NCBI GenBank assembly: GCA_015492295.1 | Contig: WGFI01000059.1 | Coordinates: 1 to 52,375, forward strand | Origin: Caldifarciminota bacterium | GTDB lineage: Bacteria; Hydrothermota; Hydrothermia; LBFQ01 | Direction of reading: 5' to 3' | Length of the DNA stretch: 52,375 nucleotides | In this document: positions 14,338-49,810 of the stretch, piece by piece | How the letters are laid out: each line of letters starts with the position of its first letter | Numbering within the stretch: position 1 is the first letter of the stretch | Made by a program: the position numbers and the translations under genes | Notes under the pieces: generated by a model | Told to the model about the DNA's origin: nothing | Database searches by the model: none | The model's input: only the letters and a program-made list of their open reading frames with translations

Positions 14338-15696
14338 ATGCTCCTTATACCTAAGACGAGATTCACAAAGATACATTTTGTAGGCATAGGCGGTTCGGGA
14401 ATGAGCGGTTTGGCAGAGATATTGCATTTCTTAGGTTTTGAGATTCAAGGCTCCGATGTGGCCATTAAGGAAACTACTAAAAGGCTTGAAAGCCTGGGTA
14501 TTAAGGTATTCTACGGACATAAGGCTGAAAATATAAACGGCGCCCATCTAGTTGTATATTCCTCAGCTATAACACCCGATAATCCGGAGATAATCGCAGC
14601 GAAGGAGAAAGGGATACCGGTTATACACAGGGCTGAGATGCTTTCGGAGGTGATGAGAGTAAAGTTTTCCATAGTAATATCGGGATCGCATGGTAAAAGC
14701 ACCACGACATCCATGATAGGACATATACTGAAAAATGTTGGTAAAAAACCGACCATAATAGTTGGCGGCATTTTGAGGGATTCTGGATCCGGGAGTGTTA
14801 TGGGTTCAGGAGAATACTTGGTCGCGGAGGCGGATGAATCCGACAGGTCTTTTTTAAGGTTGCTACCTTCAATAGCGGTCATCACAAACATAGATAGGGA
14901 ACATATGGATACCTATAAGAGCATGGCTTCGTTGAAGATGGCTTTTATAAACTTCGCGAATAGCGTGCCTTTTTATGGCTCGGTGGTAATTTGCAAAGAT
15001 GATAAACATGCGAAGGATATAATCCCTTTCATTGAAAGGAGGTTATTCACTTATGGATTTAACATAGACAATGATGTCTTCGCGGATAATATAACTCTTA
15101 TCGGTTTGGGCAGCGAGTTTGAGGTTGTGGGTTTTAATCGTAGATATAAGGCGAAGTTATCCGTTCCCGGTAAGTTCAATATACTAAACGCCTTGGCATC
15201 ATTTACGGTCGCGTGGGAATTGGGAATATCGTTTAAGGATGCGATAGAGGCTTTGGAAGATTTCAAAGGGGTTGGCAGAAGATTTGAGATAAAGGGGGAG
15301 AAGCTTGGAGCCACTTTCGTTGATGATTACGGACATCATCCTACGGAAATTAGGAATGTTTTGGAATTTGCCAGAACCTTAAACAGGAGAATAATAACCG
15401 TTTTTCAGCCTCATAGATACACCAGAACTATGGATTTATACAAGGATTTCGCCGAAGTTCTGATGGAATCCGATCATGTCATTCTTCTACCTATATATCC
15501 GGCGGGTGAGAAACCTATAAGCGGAGTATCCACGATGCTTATATACAATGCTATGAAAGAGAGGGGTTATGATAATGTGGTTTTGGTTGATGATATGGAG
15601 GAGGCTGTGAATATATTGAGGAAGTTGATAAGGGAGGGTGATATGGTGCTTCTGCAAGGCGCAGGCAATGTGTATAAAATCTTTGATATGATATGA
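14338..15696 (+). CDS. murC: UDP-N-acetylmuramate--L-alanine ligase
   Basis: A 452-residue MurC, the ATP-dependent ligase that adds the first amino acid of the peptidoglycan stem peptide in the cytoplasm. The N-terminal UDP-binding loop is FVGIGGSGMSGLAEIL, the ATP P-loop is ISGSHGKSTTTSMIGHIL, and the C-terminal domain has the conserved VDDYGHHPTEI and FQPHRYTRT. Full length. It stands alone, away from the usual mur cluster, and overlaps the btuF-like gene by 4 bases (ATGA). Confidence 0.96.
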   Translation: MLLIPKTRFTKIHFVGIGGSGMSGLAEILHFLGFEIQGSDVAIKETTKRLESLGIKVFYGHKAENINGAHLVVYSSAITPDNPEIIAAKEKGIPVIHRAEMLSEVMRVKFSIVISGSHGKSTTTSMIGHILKNVGKKPTIIVGGILRDSGSGSVMGSGEYLVAEADESDRSFLRLLPSIAVITNIDREHMDTYKSMASLKMAFINFANSVPFYGSVVICKDDKHAKDIIPFIERRLFTYGFNIDNDVFADNITLIGLGSEFEVVGFNRRYKAKLSVPGKFNILNALASFTVAWELGISFKDAIEALEDFKGVGRRFEIKGEKLGATFVDDYGHHPTEIRNVLEFARTLNRRIITVFQPHRYTRTMDLYKDFAEVLMESDHVILLPIYPAGEKPISGVSTMLIYNAMKERGYDNVVLVDDMEEAVNILRKLIREGDMVLLQGAGNVYKIFDMI

Positions 15697-16460
15697 AAAA
15701 GGTTATGCTTCTTTTCCTGTTTATATGCTGCGGGGTTGATAATAAAGGGAAAATAGTATCTCTCGTTCCCTCTGCCGATGAGATCATAGATTTTCTCGGT
15801 GCGAAGGATGTACTCGCCGGCGTCTCAACATACAGTCCTTTGAAAGACGAAATAAGAGTCGTGGGGGATTTAATAAATCCGGATTATGAGGTCATATCAT
15901 CCCTTTCCCCTCAAATGGTAATAATAACCTTACCTATGCAGAAAAGGGTAAAGGAAAGACTTGAAGATATGGGTATAAAGACCTACGATTTTTCTCCTGA
16001 AAGCGTTGAGGAGTTAAAATCTGAAATACTGAACTTGGGAAAAATTTTGGGGAGAGAAAAGAAAGCGGATAAGCTCGCCGATAGTATAGATATGACCATT
16101 AAAACGATCTCTCCCATGCCCGAATTCACATTCGTGGTTGAAATATCGGATAAACCCGTTTATGTCGCAGGAAAGAACACTTATATATCGGAAATATTGG
16201 GGAGGTTTGGAGGAAAGAACGCTTTTTACGATATAAAAGGTTATAAACCCGTATCATCCGAGGATGTTATAAGCAGAAAATTTGATGTGATAATAGCACC
16301 CTATGATATAGGAAATCGCGTAGGTTTTGAAGGGGTTTGTAGAATCACATTGCCTCCCGATTATATGTCGCCGGGACTGAAAATTTTCGCTTTAATAGAC
16401 AGCTTAAAGTTTAACCTTATGCGCTGCTTTGAAGAAAACCTTGTCGGCTCTGTAAGATGA
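15693..16460 (+). CDS. btuF: ABC transporter substrate-binding lipoprotein, cobalamin/siderophore type (BtuF-like)
   Basis: A 255-residue periplasmic binding protein of the BtuF/FecB class. The short signal [13 protein letters not shown] ends in a lipobox cysteine. RIVSLVPS-type start ([20 protein letters not shown]), [20 protein letters not shown] and the long central helix are typical. It would deliver vitamin B12 or a similar ligand to an inner-membrane transporter; the permease and ATPase are not in the window. A B12 riboswitch controls a separate outer-membrane uptake unit at 45.9-48.7 kb, which supports the B12 assignment by context only. The last 57 bases overlap the convergent lipA gene. 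Confidence 0.75.
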
Positions 16461-26636: not shown

Positions 26637-28229
26637 CTATTTATACACGACAACCTTTTTCACCTTTCCGTTCCCCTTAACAAAATAAACACCTTTTATT
26701 CTCTTAAACCCTTCAAATGGACCTTGATAAATGACCCTACCAGAAACATCATAAACCTTTACATTCGTATTCGGTGTTATCTCAACACTCTCATAAACAT
26801 CTATCAAACCGCATCCGCCTTCATTTGAAGTCGCGTCTATGGCGGCTACCTGATGGGTTCCTCCTCCCACAGCAACTATCTCTACACACCCATCACCATC
26901 TATATCCCCCACACTTATAGAGTTCAAAAAATTACCAGGTCTCACTTGCCACAAAAGCGTTCCATATGAGGATAAAACATAGATGGAAGAGTCCCCATGG
27001 GTTATAACCTCCATTCCAGAACTTGGGTCAATATCCGCTAAAACCACATCATTCATCCATATATAAGGGCTACCAACATAATAAGACCATAAAAGGGAGC
27101 CATCCGTCCCTTTAAGGGCATAGACATATCCATCCATACTACCCACAATAACCTCAACATTCCCATCATTGTTTATATCTCCTATCGTCGGAGAGGAAGA
27201 TATATCGCCACCCGTTTGATAGAACCATAACAGTGCACCATTCGTACCCCTAAGTGCATAAACCTTTCCATCCCTGCTTCCTACCACTACTTCAACTTTT
27301 CCATCTCCGTTTATATCCCCTATCGCAGGGGAAGATAACACCCAATCGCTTGGGGTAAAAGACCATAGCTTAATACCCCACCACAAAGCATAAACATTCC
27401 AATCCATATTCATGGTACCCACGACCACCTCCAAAAACCCTCCGTTGTTTAAATCTCCTATGGCAGGAGAGGAAAATACCCCACCTTGCGTCAAGTAATA
27501 CCACAATACAGAACCATTTGTACCCCTCAATACATAAACAGTGCTATCCGTATTTCTACCCATCAAATCAATGTATCCTCCACCTACAACTACTTCAATA
27601 TTACCGTCCCAGTTTATATCTCCTATCGCAGGTGAAGACAATACCTCGCCATTAGTTAAGAAAGTCCATAACATAGTACCATTTGTACCCCTTATGGCAT
27701 CCACCCTGCCATAATGAGTGGAATTATCACCAATACCCACAACTACTTCAATTAAACTATCATTGTTTATATCCCCTATTGCGGGGGAAGACCTTACAGG
27801 AGAATAACCTAGTTGGTAAGACCATAAAAGGGAACCATTTGTACCCCTTAAAGCATACACCTTGCCATTATAAATACTATCGCAATTAACACAACCCACA
27901 ACAACTTCAATGTTTCCATCATTGTTGATATCCCCTATGGCAGGAGAACCGGTTACATTACCGGTTGTTGTATAAGTCCATTTAATATATCTTCCCGATG
28001 TAAAGTTCCCCTTCATTCTTTGTCTTCCAGTATGATTCTGCGAACCGTTAAACATCTGCCAGGAACCCAATGCCCAGTCTGAAGGTGGAAGGCAGGTGGT
28101 TTGAAACCCACAGCTCTGAGCATTTGAAAAATCGGGTAGAAGAATCGGAATATATAGCGTTAAGCACACAAATATTCCATAGACTTTTACCTCCAAAACG
28201 CGCTTTATTGCTACTATTTTCCCTTTCAT
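26637..28229 (-). CDS. Secreted FG-GAP/PQQ-like beta-propeller protein with sorting-like domain
   Basis: A 530-residue protein: signal peptide ending near NAQS, a cysteine-containing start (SCGFQTTC), then about eight repeats IGDINNDGNIEVVVG-(x)-GKVYALRGTNGSLLWSY. The D-x-N-x-D-G-N loops are calcium-binding sites of FG-GAP (integrin-like) repeats, while the YALRGTNGSLLW part resembles PQQ-type blades. It ends in the sorting-like module VKVYDVSGRVIYQG ... KGVYFVKGNGKVKKVVV. Closely similar to the next gene, so the pair arose by duplication. Probably surface-exposed; ligand unknown. Confidence 0.88.
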   Translation of the reverse strand: MKGKIVAIKRVLEVKVYGIFVCLTLYIPILLPDFSNAQSCGFQTTCLPPSDWALGSWQMFNGSQNHTGRQRMKGNFTSGRYIKWTYTTTGNVTGSPAIGDINNDGNIEVVVGCVNCDSIYNGKVYALRGTNGSLLWSYQLGYSPVRSSPAIGDINNDSLIEVVVGIGDNSTHYGRVDAIRGTNGTMLWTFLTNGEVLSSPAIGDINWDGNIEVVVGGGYIDLMGRNTDSTVYVLRGTNGSVLWYYLTQGGVFSSPAIGDLNNGGFLEVVVGTMNMDWNVYALWWGIKLWSFTPSDWVLSSPAIGDINGDGKVEVVVGSRDGKVYALRGTNGALLWFYQTGGDISSSPTIGDINNDGNVEVIVGSMDGYVYALKGTDGSLLWSYYVGSPYIWMNDVVLADIDPSSGMEVITHGDSSIYVLSSYGTLLWQVRPGNFLNSISVGDIDGDGCVEIVAVGGGTHQVAAIDATSNEGGCGLIDVYESVEITPNTNVKVYDVSGRVIYQGPFEGFKRIKGVYFVKGNGKVKKVVVYK

Positions 28230-28238
28230 AATCTATAT

Positions 28239-28244
28239 ATTTTA
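28239..28244 (-). promoter_or_regulatory. -10 box of the 28229 gene (leaderless)
   Basis: TAAAAT on the minus strand, 9 bases before the ATG at 28229, in the 31-base gap after the upstream paralogue. Confidence 0.5.
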
Positions 28245-28260
28245 ATGTTGAAAAACTTTA

Positions 28261-29796
28261 TTAACGCACAATCACTTTTCTCACCTTCCCCTTACTCTCC
28301 GCAAAATAAATACCCTTTTCACCTTCAAACTCCTCAAACAAACCCTGATAAACCACCTTACCTGAAACATCATAAACTTTCACTTCCGTTTTCGGTGTTA
28401 TTTCCGCATTTTCGCCCACTGATAACTCGTCATCTGCACCAAGAACACCACATCCACCTTCGTTGGAAGTCGCGTCTATTACTCTGACCCAACTTTTACC
28501 AACTAGAACGATTTCTGCGCATCCATCACCGTCTACATCGCTTATATTAACACCCATAACACCTCTTGGAGAAACCCCAGACCAAAGTCTTGAACCACTA
28601 GAAGAAATTAAATATATATCGTATCCGAAACCCTCATGTGTAACTATTTCAAGACCGGGTGATGGATGGAGTTCGGCCGTAACTACATCAGGGTAATTCC
28701 CATACCAATATCCAACTCCACTAAACCTCCACACAAGAGAGCCATCGCTCCCTCTCAATACATACAAATATCCATCTCTACTTACAGTCATAATTTCCTT
28801 TGCACCATCACTATTTATATCCGCTACCGCTATTGAAGTTCCAATATCACCACCTGTCATATAAGACCATATAAGACTTCCATCTGTTCCTCTCAAAGCG
28901 TAAATTCTCCAATCTAAACTTCCTATAACCACCTCAACATTTCCATCGTTATTTATATCTTCTATAGTCGGAGAAACATCAACATCGGAGCCAGTAGTGA
29001 AACTCCAAATGAGGGTTCCATTTGTTCCTCTTAAAGCATAAACGTTATTGTCTTTACTACCTATTACGATTTCAATATTTCCATCGCTATTTATGTCTCC
29101 TATCGCGGGTGAGGAATATACTCCATTTCCCGTCGTGAAAGACCAAATTAAAGAACCATCCGTTCCTCGTAAGGCGTACACATTACCATCAGAGCTTCCT
29201 ACAACAACTTCTACATTCCCATCAAGATCTATATCGCCCACAGCAGGAGAAGATGCTACTGCGCTACCTGCACTATAAAACCACAATACGGATCCGTTGG
29301 TTCCCCGTAAAGCATATAATCTACCATTATTGCTCCCTATCACAACCTCAATATTACCGTCTCCATTTATATCGGCTATTAATGGAGAAGATGAAACACC
29401 TCCAGAAGAGAGAGAACCAATTGAACGTGACCAAAGAACAGCTCCATTTGTGCCTCTAAGAGCATATACTTTCCCTGTTCTATCTCCTACCACAACTTCA
29501 ATATTCCCATCGTTGTTTATATCTCCAACAGCCGGTTGTGAGGTTACATAGTTTGGGAAACCGGTACCCCATTTCCCATATATTCCTACCGAAAAATTCC
29601 CCCTCATCGCTTGCCTTCCCGTATGCTTCTGTGTTCCATAGAACATCTGCCAAGAAGCGTTGGCCCAGTCAGAAGGTGGAACGCAAGTCGTCTGGAATCC
29701 ACAACTCTGTGCGGTTGATACCTTTGGATATAGAGCAAAGAAACAAATTACCATAATCCCCCAGCAGATTTTTATATAACCTTTGATCCCTTTCAT
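28261..29796 (-). CDS. Secreted FG-GAP/PQQ-like beta-propeller protein, paralogue of the neighbour
   Basis: A 511-residue protein with the same layout as the downstream gene: signal peptide (cleavage near STAQS), AQSCGFQTTCVPPSDWA, eight FG-GAP/PQQ-like repeats with DINNDGN or DINGDGN calcium loops, a divergent C-terminal pair of repeats, and the sorting-like end (EVKVYDVSGKVVYQG ... KGIYFAESKGKVRKVIV). The ATG at 29796 is chosen because it starts a normal signal peptide; an in-frame ATG at 29865 would translate palindrome copy 3 and promoter DNA. Upstream is the possible regulator gene 29862-31043. Confidence 0.88.
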   Translation of the reverse strand: MKGIKGYIKICWGIMVICFFALYPKVSTAQSCGFQTTCVPPSDWANASWQMFYGTQKHTGRQAMRGNFSVGIYGKWGTGFPNYVTSQPAVGDINNDGNIEVVVGDRTGKVYALRGTNGAVLWSRSIGSLSSGGVSSSPLIADINGDGNIEVVIGSNNGRLYALRGTNGSVLWFYSAGSAVASSPAVGDIDLDGNVEVVVGSSDGNVYALRGTDGSLIWSFTTGNGVYSSPAIGDINSDGNIEIVIGSKDNNVYALRGTNGTLIWSFTTGSDVDVSPTIEDINNDGNVEVVIGSLDWRIYALRGTDGSLIWSYMTGGDIGTSIAVADINSDGAKEIMTVSRDGYLYVLRGSDGSLVWRFSGVGYWYGNYPDVVTAELHPSPGLEIVTHEGFGYDIYLISSSGSRLWSGVSPRGVMGVNISDVDGDGCAEIVLVGKSWVRVIDATSNEGGCGVLGADDELSVGENAEITPKTEVKVYDVSGKVVYQGLFEEFEGEKGIYFAESKGKVRKVIVR

Positions 29797-29806
29797 AGCG
29801 TTAGTA

Positions 29807-29812
29807 ATCCTA
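29807..29812 (-). promoter_or_regulatory. Weak -10 box of the 29796 gene
   Basis: TAGGAT on the minus strand, 10 bases before the ATG at 29796; poorer than the other boxes, in line with dependence on an activator at palindrome copy 3. Confidence 0.4.
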
Positions 29813-29841
29813 TTCCTGAAACATGCTGATTTGTAACCTGG

Positions 29842-29860
29842 TTGCCAAGACCCGTGGCAA
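29842..29860 (-). promoter_or_regulatory. Palindrome TTGCCA-N7-TGGCAA, copy 3
   Basis: Six-base arms with a 7-base centre; read towards the propeller gene it is followed by ACCA like copy 2. Centre about 51 bases before the predicted RNA start. It lies between the stop of the 29862-31043 gene and the propeller gene. Confidence 0.6.
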
Positions 29861-29861
29861 A

Positions 29862-31043
29862 TCATTTGAGGTATCTGATGAACAATTCTCTCAACTCCGG
29901 TTTATTTTTTAAAAAGTTTCCCCTTTCCACGCTCACCTTTAAGTCGGTTTTACAGTACGCGAGTCCCAAGTTCTCCAAGCGGGACATATACTCATAACAT
30001 CTTCTTCTTGGATCCCTTGATGTCGGGAAAATAAACTTAGCGTTATCTATAACGGCTTTCCTTGAACCGATTTTCATTAAGGCTAGGATGATTTTAGACT
30101 TCTCCATTCGCGGAAACCTGAATTTTTTACTGCCTTTGAACACTTCCAGATCGCTGAACCTGAGCCAATATCCTCCCGATGAAACCAGCATCAAATAATA
30201 AGATTGATGGTACAACCCTCTTAAAGGAGGAGTATCATTGCCGATGATGGTATAATATACCGACCTTAATACTGGCACATTTTCTATGGTTCTCCGGTAT
30301 ATTTTGAGCGTGTTTATGAAGTCCTTTCTTATCATACTTTGATAGATCAGCGCTTTTAAATAATTCAATCTATCTCCCGTTGATTCGCTAAGAACCTTGA
30401 TCTGCTCCAGACCCATTAGATCCCTCCTTAAAATGTATAAAATCATCGCGGATTGTAATCCCAATGGTAATATCCCCTTTTCCAGAAATAACGATGTGGC
30501 TCTCTCGTATATATTTATACTTTCCTCCACATTCCCTTCACCCAACAGATAGAAACCTCTCAACATCTCGGACAATAGAGCGTACAACTTGGGTACATCC
30601 TTAAATTTTGAGAATTCCTCATAATCAACCTTCTCCCCATTTAGGAGACGAATATTTAAATCTATTATTTCCTTTTCAAAACCTTTCAAATCTGAAACTT
30701 TCAATACCTTCTTGGCTTCTTTTGTAAATCCTAAATTTACCAGATAGGCCAGCTTTATATCGTTGGACACATAAGATAGAACCTTTTTAAATCCTTTAAG
30801 ATTGAGAGACTTTATATAACTCGCCGCAAGCATTTCGTAGGCACATGTAGGAATATAACCCTTATGTTTTTTGAATATCTTGATATAACGAATGACCCGA
30901 TTAAATCTTCCGAGTATGACACATGCGTTGAGCAATGTCCTTAGCGTTTCTTCACTTATATGCTCCTTAAAGGATCTTTCTAAAACATTTAAATCTATAT
31001 CTTCCTTAAAATCCAGAAAGACTTGTAAAATATCCTTGGACAT
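29862..31043 (-). CDS. TPR-like protein with possible C-terminal winged helix (candidate regulator)
   Basis: A 393-residue cytoplasmic protein. Residues 1-270 are paired helices of TPR-like type (EMLRGFYLLGEGNVEESINIYERATSLFLEKG). After a strand WLRFSDLEVFKGSKKFRF comes a segment with SKIILALMKIGSRKAVIDNA and RRRCYEYMSRLENLGL, which fits the winged-helix of SARP/AfsR-type regulators, here at the C-terminus. I infer a DNA-binding regulator; no family is certain. It sits directly upstream of palindrome copy 3, so it is a candidate for the protein that reads that motif. TATAAT lies 7 bases before its ATG. Confidence 0.6.
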   Translation of the reverse strand: MSKDILQVFLDFKEDIDLNVLERSFKEHISEETLRTLLNACVILGRFNRVIRYIKIFKKHKGYIPTCAYEMLAASYIKSLNLKGFKKVLSYVSNDIKLAYLVNLGFTKEAKKVLKVSDLKGFEKEIIDLNIRLLNGEKVDYEEFSKFKDVPKLYALLSEMLRGFYLLGEGNVEESINIYERATSLFLEKGILPLGLQSAMILYILRRDLMGLEQIKVLSESTGDRLNYLKALIYQSMIRKDFINTLKIYRRTIENVPVLRSVYYTIIGNDTPPLRGLYHQSYYLMLVSSGGYWLRFSDLEVFKGSKKFRFPRMEKSKIILALMKIGSRKAVIDNAKFIFPTSRDPRRRCYEYMSRLENLGLAYCKTDLKVSVERGNFLKNKPELRELFIRYLK

Positions 31044-45953: not shown

Positions 45954-47405
45954 CTAACGCCGATATTTTAGATGTAGTGATATCGTTCTGTCCCTTATGG
46001 GATAACCTTCAACGAATTCATCCTCTCTATCCAAAAGGTTATCAACCTTTAAAACACATTCAAATTTTTTGATCTTCATCCTTAAAAACATACCCATCTG
46101 CAATACGAAATCAACGAATCTGGTATTTTCCTTGTTTGTAAATCTCGGATCAAGGTAAAGGGCGTACAAACCCATGAAACTGAGGTTAAAATTGATGAAA
46201 TACGAATTCTTAGGCCTATAAATCATCCTTTTGCCGTTATCATAATAAGCCCAAATCCTGTCATACTTGAACAGAAAATTTCCCTTTTTTATTTTCAAAC
46301 TCATACCCCAGATGTTCCCCGAGCCTTCATTGTAAGGTCTCCAAATACCGCTCACACTTTTCCACTCTATTATATTCCAAACTCTCCTGGCAAAACCCAT
46401 CAGATAGAAGACTCTATAAGATACTTCCGTAGATAAGAGTATGGAACTTTCATTTTTTAAATTGGGATTTCCCTCGGCACCCGCACCTTTCCAGTACAAC
46501 TCATCAAATGAAGGGATACGATTTGATAAGGTTGCCCTCACTATCAGCTTTCCATAAGCTAACAGCGAATAAAAGGAATAACCTAACCTTTTCAGATCAC
46601 TCCAAACATTCGCATTCAGACCTACGATACCCACACTGAAAGTTCTGGATGAGTATATTATAGGCCTTACATAAGTCCCTATATTCGTGCTTCTTACACC
46701 TTCAAGAATTATAAGATTTCTGAAACCCGATATTTCATAGGTTTCCGTTAAACGGAAGTTATCGTGAATGTAATCCCCGAATATATCATTCCACCTTCTA
46801 CGGAGAATTAAGAGCGAAATCCTCCCGACCTTTCCAGCCAATCTCATATCCGTTTGTATTCCCGATGTTTGGGGAAAACCTTTCATTCCGCTCGTTCTTT
46901 TTCGTGATACCCTCAAATCCCAAAATTGCCCCTCCTGTTTGAAAAAGCTCTCCAAAAAGATAATGGTGTCCCTTACACCGATCAAATTTCCTCCATCAAA
47001 ACCAGCGATATTCGTCTTATATCCTAAGGAAATTCCCCTGAATTGATTAACAAAAATATAACCCTCCTCAGCATCGTCATTTCTAATATCCAGATTTCCG
47101 TATATGGAATATGGCGTTATTCCCCCCTCAAATACGGTAATTCTGTTGAATAGAAATGGGGATATATCCGTAAGGTCCGCGTAGGAACTTTGAGGTTGAT
47201 TTATGAGTATTCCGTTGAGAAATAAGGCGTTTCCCTTCGGATGCCCTCCCTTTATGGATATACCTGATAGATCCGCGTAAGATCCATAAGTGTATCCGTA
47301 AATACCTGAGATGGATGAAGCTGACAACCAAATATCCGCATATTCTATATTTACGCTATCCCCGGGAGATGCCTCCACAGTTATCGGCGGCAGTATGAAA
47401 CTCAG
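45954..47405 (-). CDS. TonB-dependent outer-membrane receptor (BtuB-like), probable CTG start
   Basis: A receptor of about 480 residues, small for the family. The start shows PPITVEAS, which fits a TonB box, then a plug domain (GNALFLNGILINQPQSSYAD, ITVFEGGITPYSIYGNL) and a barrel ending in NLLDREDEFVEGYPIRDRTI, the family C-terminal signature. The TonB box lies upstream of the first ATG/GTG (GTG 47378), so translation must begin earlier; the only option after an in-frame stop is CTG at 47403-47405, 11 bases after an AGGAGG. This leaves almost no signal peptide. The gene follows a BtuG-like propeller under a B12 riboswitch, so B12 uptake is inferred. Confidence 0.8.
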   Translation of the reverse strand: MSFILPPITVEASPGDSVNIEYADIWLSASSISGIYGYTYGSYADLSGISIKGGHPKGNALFLNGILINQPQSSYADLTDISPFLFNRITVFEGGITPYSIYGNLDIRNDDAEEGYIFVNQFRGISLGYKTNIAGFDGGNLIGVRDTIIFLESFFKQEGQFWDLRVSRKRTSGMKGFPQTSGIQTDMRLAGKVGRISLLILRRRWNDIFGDYIHDNFRLTETYEISGFRNLIILEGVRSTNIGTYVRPIIYSSRTFSVGIVGLNANVWSDLKRLGYSFYSLLAYGKLIVRATLSNRIPSFDELYWKGAGAEGNPNLKNESSILLSTEVSYRVFYLMGFARRVWNIIEWKSVSGIWRPYNEGSGNIWGMSLKIKKGNFLFKYDRIWAYYDNGKRMIYRPKNSYFINFNLSFMGLYALYLDPRFTNKENTRFVDFVLQMGMFLRMKIKKFECVLKVDNLLDREDEFVEGYPIRDRTISLHLKYRR

Positions 47406-48520
47406 CGTACTATCAACCTCCTGACCTTACCGTCTTCAACTATGAAATATACCCCTTTTGAGCGTATGCTATTGACCTTCCTTCCATCCAGTGAGTATAT
47501 CCCTCTCAACTTATTTTTCGTAATGATTTTCCTCTCAGAGGTGCTTAGGGTCGTTGGTGATAGGGTTATTGATATTGGACCTATATCAACCGTTGCAACA
47601 TGCTCAATTGAGTTTGTGGTCCTGTTATAGACTATTATGTTCCCGTTTGTGGTGTAGTCCATAGCCGCGGTGATAAACAGTCTGTCGTTGAAGATTTCAA
47701 CTTGGGAAAATCCATAGTATGTTACAAGAGGCAGGGGAACGAATATTCTGCTTGAATATATGAAATATCCGATCCAGGAATATCCCACCGCTATTACGGT
47801 ATCGGTTGATGGTATCCTACGAAGAAAACCTATGTTTGCGGGTGTTGAAATGCTGTCAATGACCCTAAGTGAGTCCGTTCTTATTATGTAGATCTTCTGC
47901 GTTGATGCGTCAAACCAATCCCCACCTGAAACTATCGCGGTATCCCCATCCATGAACTCCATATATAACATATTTATACCGAGTCGCAGCGAATCAAGGA
48001 CGATTCCGGTTGAGGTATCAATTTTATATATCGTTGAGGTATCGGTGGTATAAGAGTTCATATCATAACCCGTTGATATGGCGAATAAATATCCTCCTTT
48101 CATTCCTACATACTGGGGACTCCTCCATACACCAACGCTCCATATCTCGTTCTTCGTAGATAGATCGTACGAAACTATGCTGTCATAAAGCAAGAGGGAT
48201 ACGAATATCTTATTTCCCGATATGGATGCCATATATGGGTTGGAACTCGCGCCCGTGAATATGCTGTCAATCACAAAGGGTATATTATCATCCCGTAGGA
48301 TGTAGATTCTGTCGTTTCCCGAACTTATGGTATATAGGTACCCTGAGTTATACAGAACCTGATTGAGAGCCGAGCCATGGGGGGATACGTTGTTCCTCTG
48401 TTCAAAGGGAGAGGATACATTCATCAGGGATAGGGTGTTGGATATTGTATTGGCTACTACAACCCTTTGCCCGAAAGCATATAAAGGAAAGAAGATAAAA
48501 ATAAATATTCCCCTTTTCAT
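47402..48520 (-). CDS. BtuG-like secreted beta-propeller, B12-regulated
   Basis: A 372-residue protein with a signal peptide (MKRGIFIFIFFPLYAFGQ), then about seven YncE-like propeller blades starting VVVANTISNTLSLMNV and repeating motifs such as YLYTISSGNDRIYILRDD and KIFVSLLLYDSIVSYDL. It ends with a sorting-like domain (GIYSLDGRKVN ... SKGVYFIVEDGKVRRLIVR). In Bacteroides, the surface propeller BtuG binds B12 and sits on the BtuB receptor; here a similar protein precedes a TonB receptor behind a cobalamin riboswitch. BtuG is a lipoprotein, whereas this one would use the sorting domain for surface placement. ATG 48520 follows a good GGAGGT site. Confidence 0.8.
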   Translation of the reverse strand: MKRGIFIFIFFPLYAFGQRVVVANTISNTLSLMNVSSPFEQRNNVSPHGSALNQVLYNSGYLYTISSGNDRIYILRDDNIPFVIDSIFTGASSNPYMASISGNKIFVSLLLYDSIVSYDLSTKNEIWSVGVWRSPQYVGMKGGYLFAISTGYDMNSYTTDTSTIYKIDTSTGIVLDSLRLGINMLYMEFMDGDTAIVSGGDWFDASTQKIYIIRTDSLRVIDSISTPANIGFLRRIPSTDTVIAVGYSWIGYFIYSSRIFVPLPLVTYYGFSQVEIFNDRLFITAAMDYTTNGNIIVYNRTTNSIEHVATVDIGPISITLSPTTLSTSERKIITKNKLRGIYSLDGRKVNSIRSKGVYFIVEDGKVRRLIVR

Positions 48521-48554
48521 AGTTTTCAACCTCCGTTTGATTCCTATCTCTACC

Positions 48555-48738
48555 TCAGGGTGGCGAGCCCCGGCACCACCCTTGGAGGCGTACTCCGGGC
48601 AGGTCTTCCGGCTCGCGGGCCACCTACTCCCCCGGCCTTCCCATCCCTGTACGGGACAGTGGCCTTTTTGGGGTTTCGCTCCCGCTCACGGCCGCCGGGA
48701 CGGCTCCCGATTTTCACGGGATTCCCTCAACCCGGAGT
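48555..48738 (-). promoter_or_regulatory. Cobalamin (adenosylcobalamin) riboswitch
   Basis: A GC-rich RNA on the minus strand with the B12 riboswitch signatures in order: GAGGGAATCCCGTGAAAATC, GCCACTG, GGGAAGGC, and GAGCCGGAAGACCTGCC (the B12 box). A last hairpin (GGGTGG ... CCACCC near 48554-48580) could form the regulatory kissing-loop element. It lies between TATAAT at 48744 and the GGAGGT ribosome site of the BtuG-like gene, without a clear terminator, so control of translation is likely. B12 would switch the uptake genes off. Confidence 0.93.
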
Positions 48739-48743
48739 AGGAT

Positions 48744-48749
48744 ATTATA
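48744..48749 (-). promoter_or_regulatory. -10 box of the B12 riboswitch transcript
   Basis: TATAAT on the minus strand, just before the riboswitch, preceded by ATATTACACCCT, like the T-rich/CCC pattern at other promoters. It overlaps the start region of the divergent MNT gene. Confidence 0.6.
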
Positions 48750-48763
48750 AGGGTGTAATATAT

Positions 48764-49153
48764 ATGTTCAGCCTTAGAATATCTTTGGTGAATAAGATAC
48801 TTGAAAAGGATCCTGTTCTCCGTAGAATCGTTGAAGTTATCGTTAAGGAGATAGACCCAGATAAGATAATCCTTTTCGGTTCAAGGGCGAGGGGGGATTA
48901 CAAAGAGGACAGCGATTACGATATTCTTGTGATTAAAGAAGGGGTTAGACCAGAAGAAAGGAGGCCGTTGCAGAGGAAAATAAGGAGGGCATTTTGGCGA
49001 GAGAGTATATATCCTTCTGTCGCTGTGGATGTGATAGTTCAGGATGCTGAGAGATTTAACAGATTAAAAAACGAGAAATATTTGGTATATTATTCTATAT
49101 CAAATGAGGGGATTGTAGTTTATGAGAAAGTTTTACGCAAAACTGTGGCTTGA
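48764..49153 (+). CDS. MNT-type nucleotidyltransferase (antitoxin of HEPN/MNT pair)
   Basis: A 129-residue minimal nucleotidyltransferase. GSRARGDYKEDSDYDILV (residues 39-56) holds the GS-x10-D-x-D catalytic motif, and VAVDVIVQ supplies the third aspartate. In HEPN/MNT toxin-antitoxin systems such enzymes AMP-modify and silence the HEPN ribonuclease. The ATG at 48764 is the real start; an open frame reaching back to 48560 is only the riboswitch read in the wrong sense. It overlaps the HEPN gene by 32 bases. A related, truncated copy lies at 49517. Confidence 0.9.
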   Translation: MFSLRISLVNKILEKDPVLRRIVEVIVKEIDPDKIILFGSRARGDYKEDSDYDILVIKEGVRPEERRPLQRKIRRAFWRESIYPSVAVDVIVQDAERFNRLKNEKYLVYYSISNEGIVVYEKVLRKTVA

Positions 49154-49511
49154 ATTTGCTGAGGAAGATCTGGAATCCTCGCGTGCACTTTGGGAAAGAG
49201 GTTTGATAAGAACCGCTGCATACCATCTACAACAGACTGCGGAGAAATCTTTAAAAGCTCTTTTGATACTTCAAGGCGTGGAAGTTCCAAGGACGCATGA
49301 TATAGACAAACTTATAAAATCTTTAAGTGATTTCTATGTGATCCCCAAAGATATTCAGGATGCGGTAAATCTGACGGAGTACGCCTTTACAACCCGTTAT
49401 CCTGATGATTATGTTCCCCTATCTGAAAAAGAATATGAGAAAGCGTATGAAACGGCGTTAAAGGTTTATAAATGGGCAAAGGGGATAATAGAAGGAACAG
49501 CCTTAGAATAA
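49122..49511 (+). CDS. HEPN-domain protein (toxin of HEPN/MNT pair)
   Basis: A 129-residue HEPN domain of four to five helices. RTAAYHLQQTAEKSLKALL contains an R-x4-H pattern (R30, H35) and PRTHDIDKLIKSL is the other conserved block, both usual in HEPN proteins paired with MNT. HEPN toxins cut RNA. The C-terminal helix ends KWAKGIIEG. Translation is coupled to the MNT gene by overlap. Directly after its stop begins the partial second MNT copy. Confidence 0.88.
   Translation: MRKFYAKLWLEFAEEDLESSRALWERGLIRTAAYHLQQTAEKSLKALLILQGVEVPRTHDIDKLIKSLSDFYVIPKDIQDAVNLTEYAFTTRYPDDYVPLSEKEYEKAYETALKVYKWAKGIIEGTALE
49504..49509 (+). promoter_or_regulatory. -10 box of the second MNT copy
   Basis: TAGAAT 7 bases before ATG 49517, at the end of the HEPN gene. 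Confidence 0.4.
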
Positions 49512-49516
49512 AGGTA

Positions 49517-49810
49517 ATGAAGGGAGGAAAGGAGATACTTGAAAGGGATCCGGTACTTCGCAGGATCGTTGAGGTAATTGTTAGGGAGATAGACCCGGAT
49601 AGGATCATCCTCTTTGGTTCAAGGGCGAGGGGAGATTACAAGGAAGACAGCGATTACGATATTCTTGTGATTAAAGAAGGGGTTATGCCTGAGGAGAGGA
49701 GAAACCTAGCGACCACTTTGGAAATGGCTTTTTTGGAAACCAAAATATTCCGCTATGCAAGTTATAAAAAACCCAGCAAAAAGGGGGCTTGGATTCGCTT
49801 TGAAGGATAA
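49517..49810 (+). pseudogene. Truncated second MNT nucleotidyltransferase
   Basis: A 97-residue frame whose first 60 residues repeat the first MNT almost exactly (LERDPVLRRIVEVIVREIDP, GSRARGDYKEDSDYDILVIK), also in DNA (for example the block around 49620-49680). After PEERR the similarity ends and the frame runs into unrelated sequence (NLATTLEMAFLETKIFRYAS), so the third catalytic aspartate strand is lost. It is followed by remains of a HEPN gene. I take it as a decaying copy; it could still make a short protein. Confidence 0.7.

Follow-up and report, generated by a model that had tools for sequence, protein, structure and literature searches.

The systems closest to the locus analyzed here are the BtuG1/2/3 and BtuB1/2/3 pairs of Bacteroides thetaiotaomicron (PMC6143338, PMC10404256), which likewise combine a B12 riboswitch, a BtuB-type receptor and a seven-bladed propeller in one locus. 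In BtuG2, the loop D236-P249, bearing Tyr239, closes over B12 (PMC10404256), and a survey of gut genomes described BtuG as exclusive to Bacteroidetes (PMC6143338). DUF4465 proteins (BtuJ) and BtuH also provide accessory B12 capture in riboswitch loci, but they have other folds (PMC13398666, PMC8941943). Our literature search found no work treating BtuG as cargo of the type IX system (T9SS) and none linking candidate phylum WOR-3 with cobalamin. The capture device itself is already known; the variation described here is one of lineage and of a T9SS tail.

We analyzed a window of 52,375 nucleotides, meaning the whole stretch of DNA studied, in which the following features were identified.

48581-48750, minus strand: cobalamin riboswitch aptamer RF00174 (Rfam cmscan, 112.1 bits against a gathering score of 31.5)
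48553-48588, minus strand: GC-rich hairpin CCUC...GGGUGG-loop-CCACCC...GAGG, directly 3' of the aptamer (RNA fold)
47402-48520 including stop, minus strand: BtuG-like propeller, 372 residues (AF2 pLDDT, Foldseek, family profile)
48470-48520, minus strand: signal peptide of the propeller, MKRGIFIFIFFPLYAFG, without a lipobox cysteine (sequence and alignment A1)
47405-47539, minus strand: sorting-type tail of the propeller, about 45 residues, IYSLDGRKV..KGVYFIVEDGKVRRLIVR (tail profile, E 3.3e-5)
47406-47422, minus strand: candidate ribosome site AGGAGG (47422-47417), 8 nt and ACG, overlapping the propeller stop (identical layout in sister species G001)
45954-47408 including stop, minus strand: BtuB-type TonB-dependent receptor, about 484 residues from the candidate ACG (Plug domain, profile A2, AF2, Foldseek/VIA)
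15693-16460, plus strand: periplasmic binding protein, a BtuF-like candidate unlinked to the pair (PF01497, E 3.5e-20)

The locus probably encodes a capture pair, repressed by B12, that functions in the manner of the Bacteroides BtuG-BtuB pair but with the surface-delivery route swapped. When cobalamin is scarce, the riboswitch would permit translation of the propeller, and the receptor would be translated by coupling across the overlapping stop. The propeller would be exported by Sec and then pass through the outer membrane by the type IX system via its C-terminal tail, a route suggested by the homology of the tail and by SprA and PorV. Seated on the outside of the BtuB-type receptor, it would form a B12-binding lid, from which the vitamin would be handed to the TonB-energised receptor and then to an unlinked BtuF/BtuC-like importer. 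The riboswitch, the BtuB-type receptor, the BtuG-like fold, the sorting tail and the T9SS and TonB parts are established by homology. TonB is present in the genome, as is a B12-binding mutase-type subunit, which needs the vitamin. For the importer, the candidate binding protein matches the BtuF model NF002894 under its cut-off (E 2.4e-11), and a single FecCD permease was found in the genome (L108:3374-6881, plus strand, contig C113), away from the riboswitch and following a TSUP-type permease and a TonB receptor other than that of the pair. Four points count against the capture-pair reading: a generic propeller structure, 1l0q, ties with BtuG, the tail falls under the Pfam cut-off, the receptor lies apart in the sister genus, and tails of this type are usually cleaved.

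The riboswitch match in the window covers the full length of the covariance model (positions 1-189, E 2.3e-27), clears the Rfam gathering score by a wide interval and is the only one in the 1.96-Mb assembly (G000). The initial annotation was right that a cobalamin riboswitch lies here, but the interval it gave, 48555-48738, is off by 12 to 26 bases and also covers the hairpin 3' of the aptamer. That hairpin is likely part of the expression platform. Since it lies 3' of the aptamer and the hairpin region (48553-48588) shows no terminator pattern, repression at translation is the better guess for how the riboswitch acts.

The same arrangement recurs in related genomes. RF00174 was found in 48 of 60 genomes, as a single copy in each, and at 27 of these 48 loci a homologous propeller lies within 6 kb, on the same strand and 3' of the riboswitch. 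The pair that the initial annotation proposed to look for behind B12 riboswitches was therefore found, as the same module with a lipid-anchored propeller. In two genomes (G021 and G056) the receptor is present with an open frame that begins within the riboswitch. The commonest order in relatives is riboswitch, receptor, propeller, whereas the window and its sister species G001 have riboswitch, propeller, receptor; between these two, the propellers are 58% and the receptors 53% identical. Because G001 shares the order and 27 of 48 loci have a linked propeller, the arrangement reflects more than chance. In the sister genus (g2), the propeller stays with the riboswitch and the receptor is on another contig, with no riboswitch at the two g2 receptor loci scanned (L052 and L054).

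A scan of GTDB with the window propeller gave no match; when close lipoprotein homologues were used as queries, four loci were recovered, three of them from candidate division WOR-3. The window's genome shares its class with genomes of candidate division WOR-3 and most likely belongs to this candidate phylum. The riboswitch-BtuB-propeller module is widespread in WOR-3, and lid-type B12 capture would therefore not be a gut specialization. DUF4465 was absent from all 60 genomes searched.

Some further features of these loci were observed. Genus g2 has a second propeller as well, a lipoprotein with no B12 riboswitch; in G003 it lies about 8 kb away from the receptor (L054:12244-13209, plus strand). 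The receptor gene of three g2 genomes is truncated at contig ends, at nearly the same spot and beside a G-rich tract (L055, L056, L057, L058, L059 and L060), and the apparent split is most likely an assembly break at that tract. In the loci of family f2, which belongs to the same order as the window, an additional tailed protein of 361 to 381 residues with an HGDGQW motif immediately follows the receptor within the riboswitch locus (L062:5221-6303, minus strand; L064:6461-7543, plus strand; L061:236-1378, minus strand). It has no Pfam match and a weak match to NF033170 (LIC_13355), and it is possibly a second B12 capture protein.

The window propeller differs from Bacteroides BtuG in its phylum (WOR-3), in lacking the lipid cysteine, in its T9SS-type tail and in having its gene first. 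Outside the window's order, most of the riboswitch-linked propellers are lipoproteins, as BtuG is. Among 20 inspected, 13 have a lysine at +3 after the cysteine, and 4 have the exact C-x-K-(D/E)(D/E), the optimal surface-export signal in Capnocytophaga (PMC5080379). Families f1 (that of the window), f2, f12 and f17 have propellers that lack the cysteine and carry a tail at the C terminus. A profile built from the tails of seven other window proteins matches the f1 and f2 propeller tails, with the E value listed above for the window propeller obtained over 875 frames. By this genome-specific profile the protein has a C-terminal sorting domain, while Pfam Por_Secre_tail, which has 23 matches in the genome, stays below its cut-off on the window propeller and reports no match there. 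SprA (361 bits) and PorV (156.5 bits) are both over their cut-offs in this genome, and a PorU-like peptidase reaches 308 bits, under its cut-off of 420. With its Sec signal peptide, a tail of the IYDVSGR...GVYF...KVV(R) kind, and SprA and PorV in the genome, the protein resembles type A T9SS cargo of Bacteroidota, from which it differs in a tail that is shorter and more diverged than the Pfam and NCBIfam models. No comparable B12-capture protein among T9SS cargo came up in the papers searched. Together with the missing lipobox cysteine, these results agree with the earlier proposal that a sorting domain replaces the lipid anchor.

Because the propeller is a surface lipoprotein in most WOR-3 relatives, we conclude that the delivery route was probably exchanged and the capture module kept. 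The tree of the propeller columns requires three changes between lipid and tail; grouping all tailed propellers as one clade was rejected (AU test, p 0.0017), and grouping f1 with f2 was not (p 0.28). At one f12 locus (G040, L101:7125-9557, plus strand), a lipoprotein propeller and a tailed one stand in tandem behind the receptor; no riboswitch was detected at G040. These patterns suggest two alternative routes by which one capture device can arrive at the cell surface. It is conceivable, though in our judgment somewhat doubtful, that the anchor of such an outer-membrane lid is interchangeable, with at least two moves between lipoprotein export and the type IX route in one candidate phylum, and that the tailed form still docks on BtuB as a lid, docking taking the place of the lipid hinge. 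Since export by T9SS ordinarily ends with removal of a type A tail, lipopolysaccharide or docking, rather than lipid, would have to keep the propeller in place. The exchange of routes, and the tandem occurrence of both forms in G040, amount to a natural experiment on the anchoring of lids and on the uses of T9SS; with them one can ask experimentally whether opening of the lid depends on the lipid hinge that has been proposed for BtuB2-BtuG2. Matches in Bacteroidota material came to one, weak and unannotated, in a Prevotella record. Tailed YncE-type proteins may be annotated in Bacteroidota; in that case the tail would be less novel, but the novelty of the lineage would stand.

A propeller without a lipid could also bind B12 without being a lid, attached to lipopolysaccharide or released after type IX export as a free scavenger that supplies the receptor. 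The replacement of the lipid anchor by a sorting tail would fit such a role, as would the separation of propeller and receptor in g2 and the presence, behind the f2 receptor, of tailed putative B12 accessory proteins of another fold. We nevertheless regard it as unlikely, since the relatives keep receptor and propeller adjoining, with BtuG-like lipoprotein forms among them, and the propeller shares its fold with the lid protein.

The reading of the propeller as BtuG-like draws on its predicted structure and on its family. The open frame spans 47402-48529 (minus strand), and the ATG at 48520, 9 nt after GGAGG (48534-48530), is the likely start. The AlphaFold2 model has a mean pLDDT of 90.7, with the propeller part mostly above 90 and a low-pLDDT linker at residues 326-330, around the junction with the tail. 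Searched singly, the window propeller matched nothing significantly in Pfam, NCBIfam or the PDB, BtuG included, and its identity to Bacteroides BtuG is low (13-18%). The relation in sequence emerges at the level of the family: the profile of alignment A1, which comprises 32 propeller homologues from related genomes and 341 positions, matches BtuG1 chains with an E of 3e-17 over positions 54-315. Sixteen of the 17 top Foldseek rows obtained with the model are BtuG1, BtuG2 or BtuG3, and VIA-align superimposes it on a BtuG2 entry with a Z of 34.7 and an rmsd of 2.0 over 292 aligned residues. The seven-bladed fold is closest to BtuG by Foldseek, and by VIA it is tied with the generic YVTN surface-layer propeller 1l0q (Z of 34.9 against 34.7), so the fold by itself is not decisive. 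The 1l0q structure also takes the top A1 profile score, but this score is scattered across repeats.

As in BtuG2, the propeller appears, from the profile alignment, to have a loop equivalent to the one that closes over B12, tyrosine included. The BtuG2 loop D236-P249 would correspond to DGGY..SPYGYEEP in a related chain, and in the profile alignment that stretch stands opposite TGY....Y of the family; in the window protein the latter reads T-G-Y152 ... Y157, and Tyr157 is conserved in 90% of the family. Linkage to btuB and a B12 riboswitch is likewise as in BtuG. A lipoprotein signal for surface export, which most WOR-3 homologues have, is missing from the window protein, and because this lipid anchor is a defining feature we call the protein BtuG-like rather than BtuG proper. 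The BtuG-like propeller named in the initial annotation is upheld by the Foldseek ranking and the A1 profile, and the comparison of structures that it suggested returned a BtuG-like fold, not an unrelated one. It is quite improbable that the protein is instead a generic YVTN-type surface protein with no B12 role, placed behind the riboswitch incidentally. The tie in VIA Z and the lack of a significant single-sequence match to BtuG would be expected of such a protein, but a propeller occupies the 27 riboswitch loci in many families, Foldseek ranks strongly for BtuG, and the g2 propeller remains behind the riboswitch though the receptor has moved.

The receptor carries a Plug domain (PF07715, E 2.9e-5) and a barrel, and among TonB receptors it is nearest to BtuB, which substantiates and narrows the TonB receptor first proposed. 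With profile A2, built from 32 receptor homologues, the best ten PDB matches are all BtuB, from E. coli and from Bacteroides BtuB-BtuG complexes (E 2.5e-52 to 2e-41), and the first non-BtuB receptor in the ranking is Cir (2e-30). For the AF2 model (pLDDT 90.0, pTM 0.89), BtuB also takes the top 15 places in Foldseek and the top 16 in VIA. The NCBIfam equivalog TIGR01779 scores 17.5 bits against a cut-off of 599.7, although profile and fold group the receptor with BtuB. At about 484 residues, against about 690 for Bacteroides BtuB, it is a compact BtuB. With Escherichia coli BtuB it shares the plug and barrel, the end motif NLL..YE...GY...GR, a TonB-box-like segment and the riboswitch; unlike that protein, it is paired with a propeller and is about 110 residues shorter, and no ordinary start codon was found for it.

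The listed frame of the receptor is 45954-47378, and its GTG start at 47378 would remove the TonB-box-like segment. The open frame continues upstream of 47378, with no ATG, GTG or TTG before that segment in either g1 genome (the window's and G001). The simplest reading of the nucleotides is a candidate non-standard start at ACG 47408, which together with AGGAGG is conserved in the two g1 species (in G001 at L045, around 5849), bearing in mind that two sequences are few and that AGG-AGG doubles as the codons for the Arg-Arg of the propeller tail. In g2, the aligned N-terminus of the receptor begins with ATG (MLGIFVLQYVFPPVEVV). A fusion of the two proteins by frameshifting was rejected, there being no in-frame slippery heptamer at the two junctions examined and the topology being senseless, with the propeller outside and the TonB box inside. 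That the receptor gene lacks a start codon and is decaying, leaving the propeller alone functional, is hardly credible: an ATG, GTG or TTG and a full signal peptide are indeed missing before the TonB box in both g1 genomes, but the entire frame is open and 53% identical to that of G001, the conserved BtuB motifs are intact, AGGAGG and ACG stand at the same place in both species, and the signal segments of the receptor look short in many relatives.

Across A2, the segments resembling signal peptides are very short, with about 8-12 hydrophobic residues and few positive charges, and in the f2 genomes G009 and G011 such a segment is practically absent from the receptors. Elsewhere in the window, two tandem paralogous secreted repeat proteins with sorting tails (GDINNDGNIEVVVG...VYALRGTNG repeats) lie at 26637-29865 (minus strand). 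Divergent from the riboswitch, at 48764-49810 (plus strand), a nucleotidyltransferase-like frame (GSRARGDYKEDSDYD) is followed by a HEPN-like frame and then by a shortened second copy of the nucleotidyltransferase; judged by the reading frames, this resembles a partly duplicated MNT/HEPN toxin-antitoxin pair.
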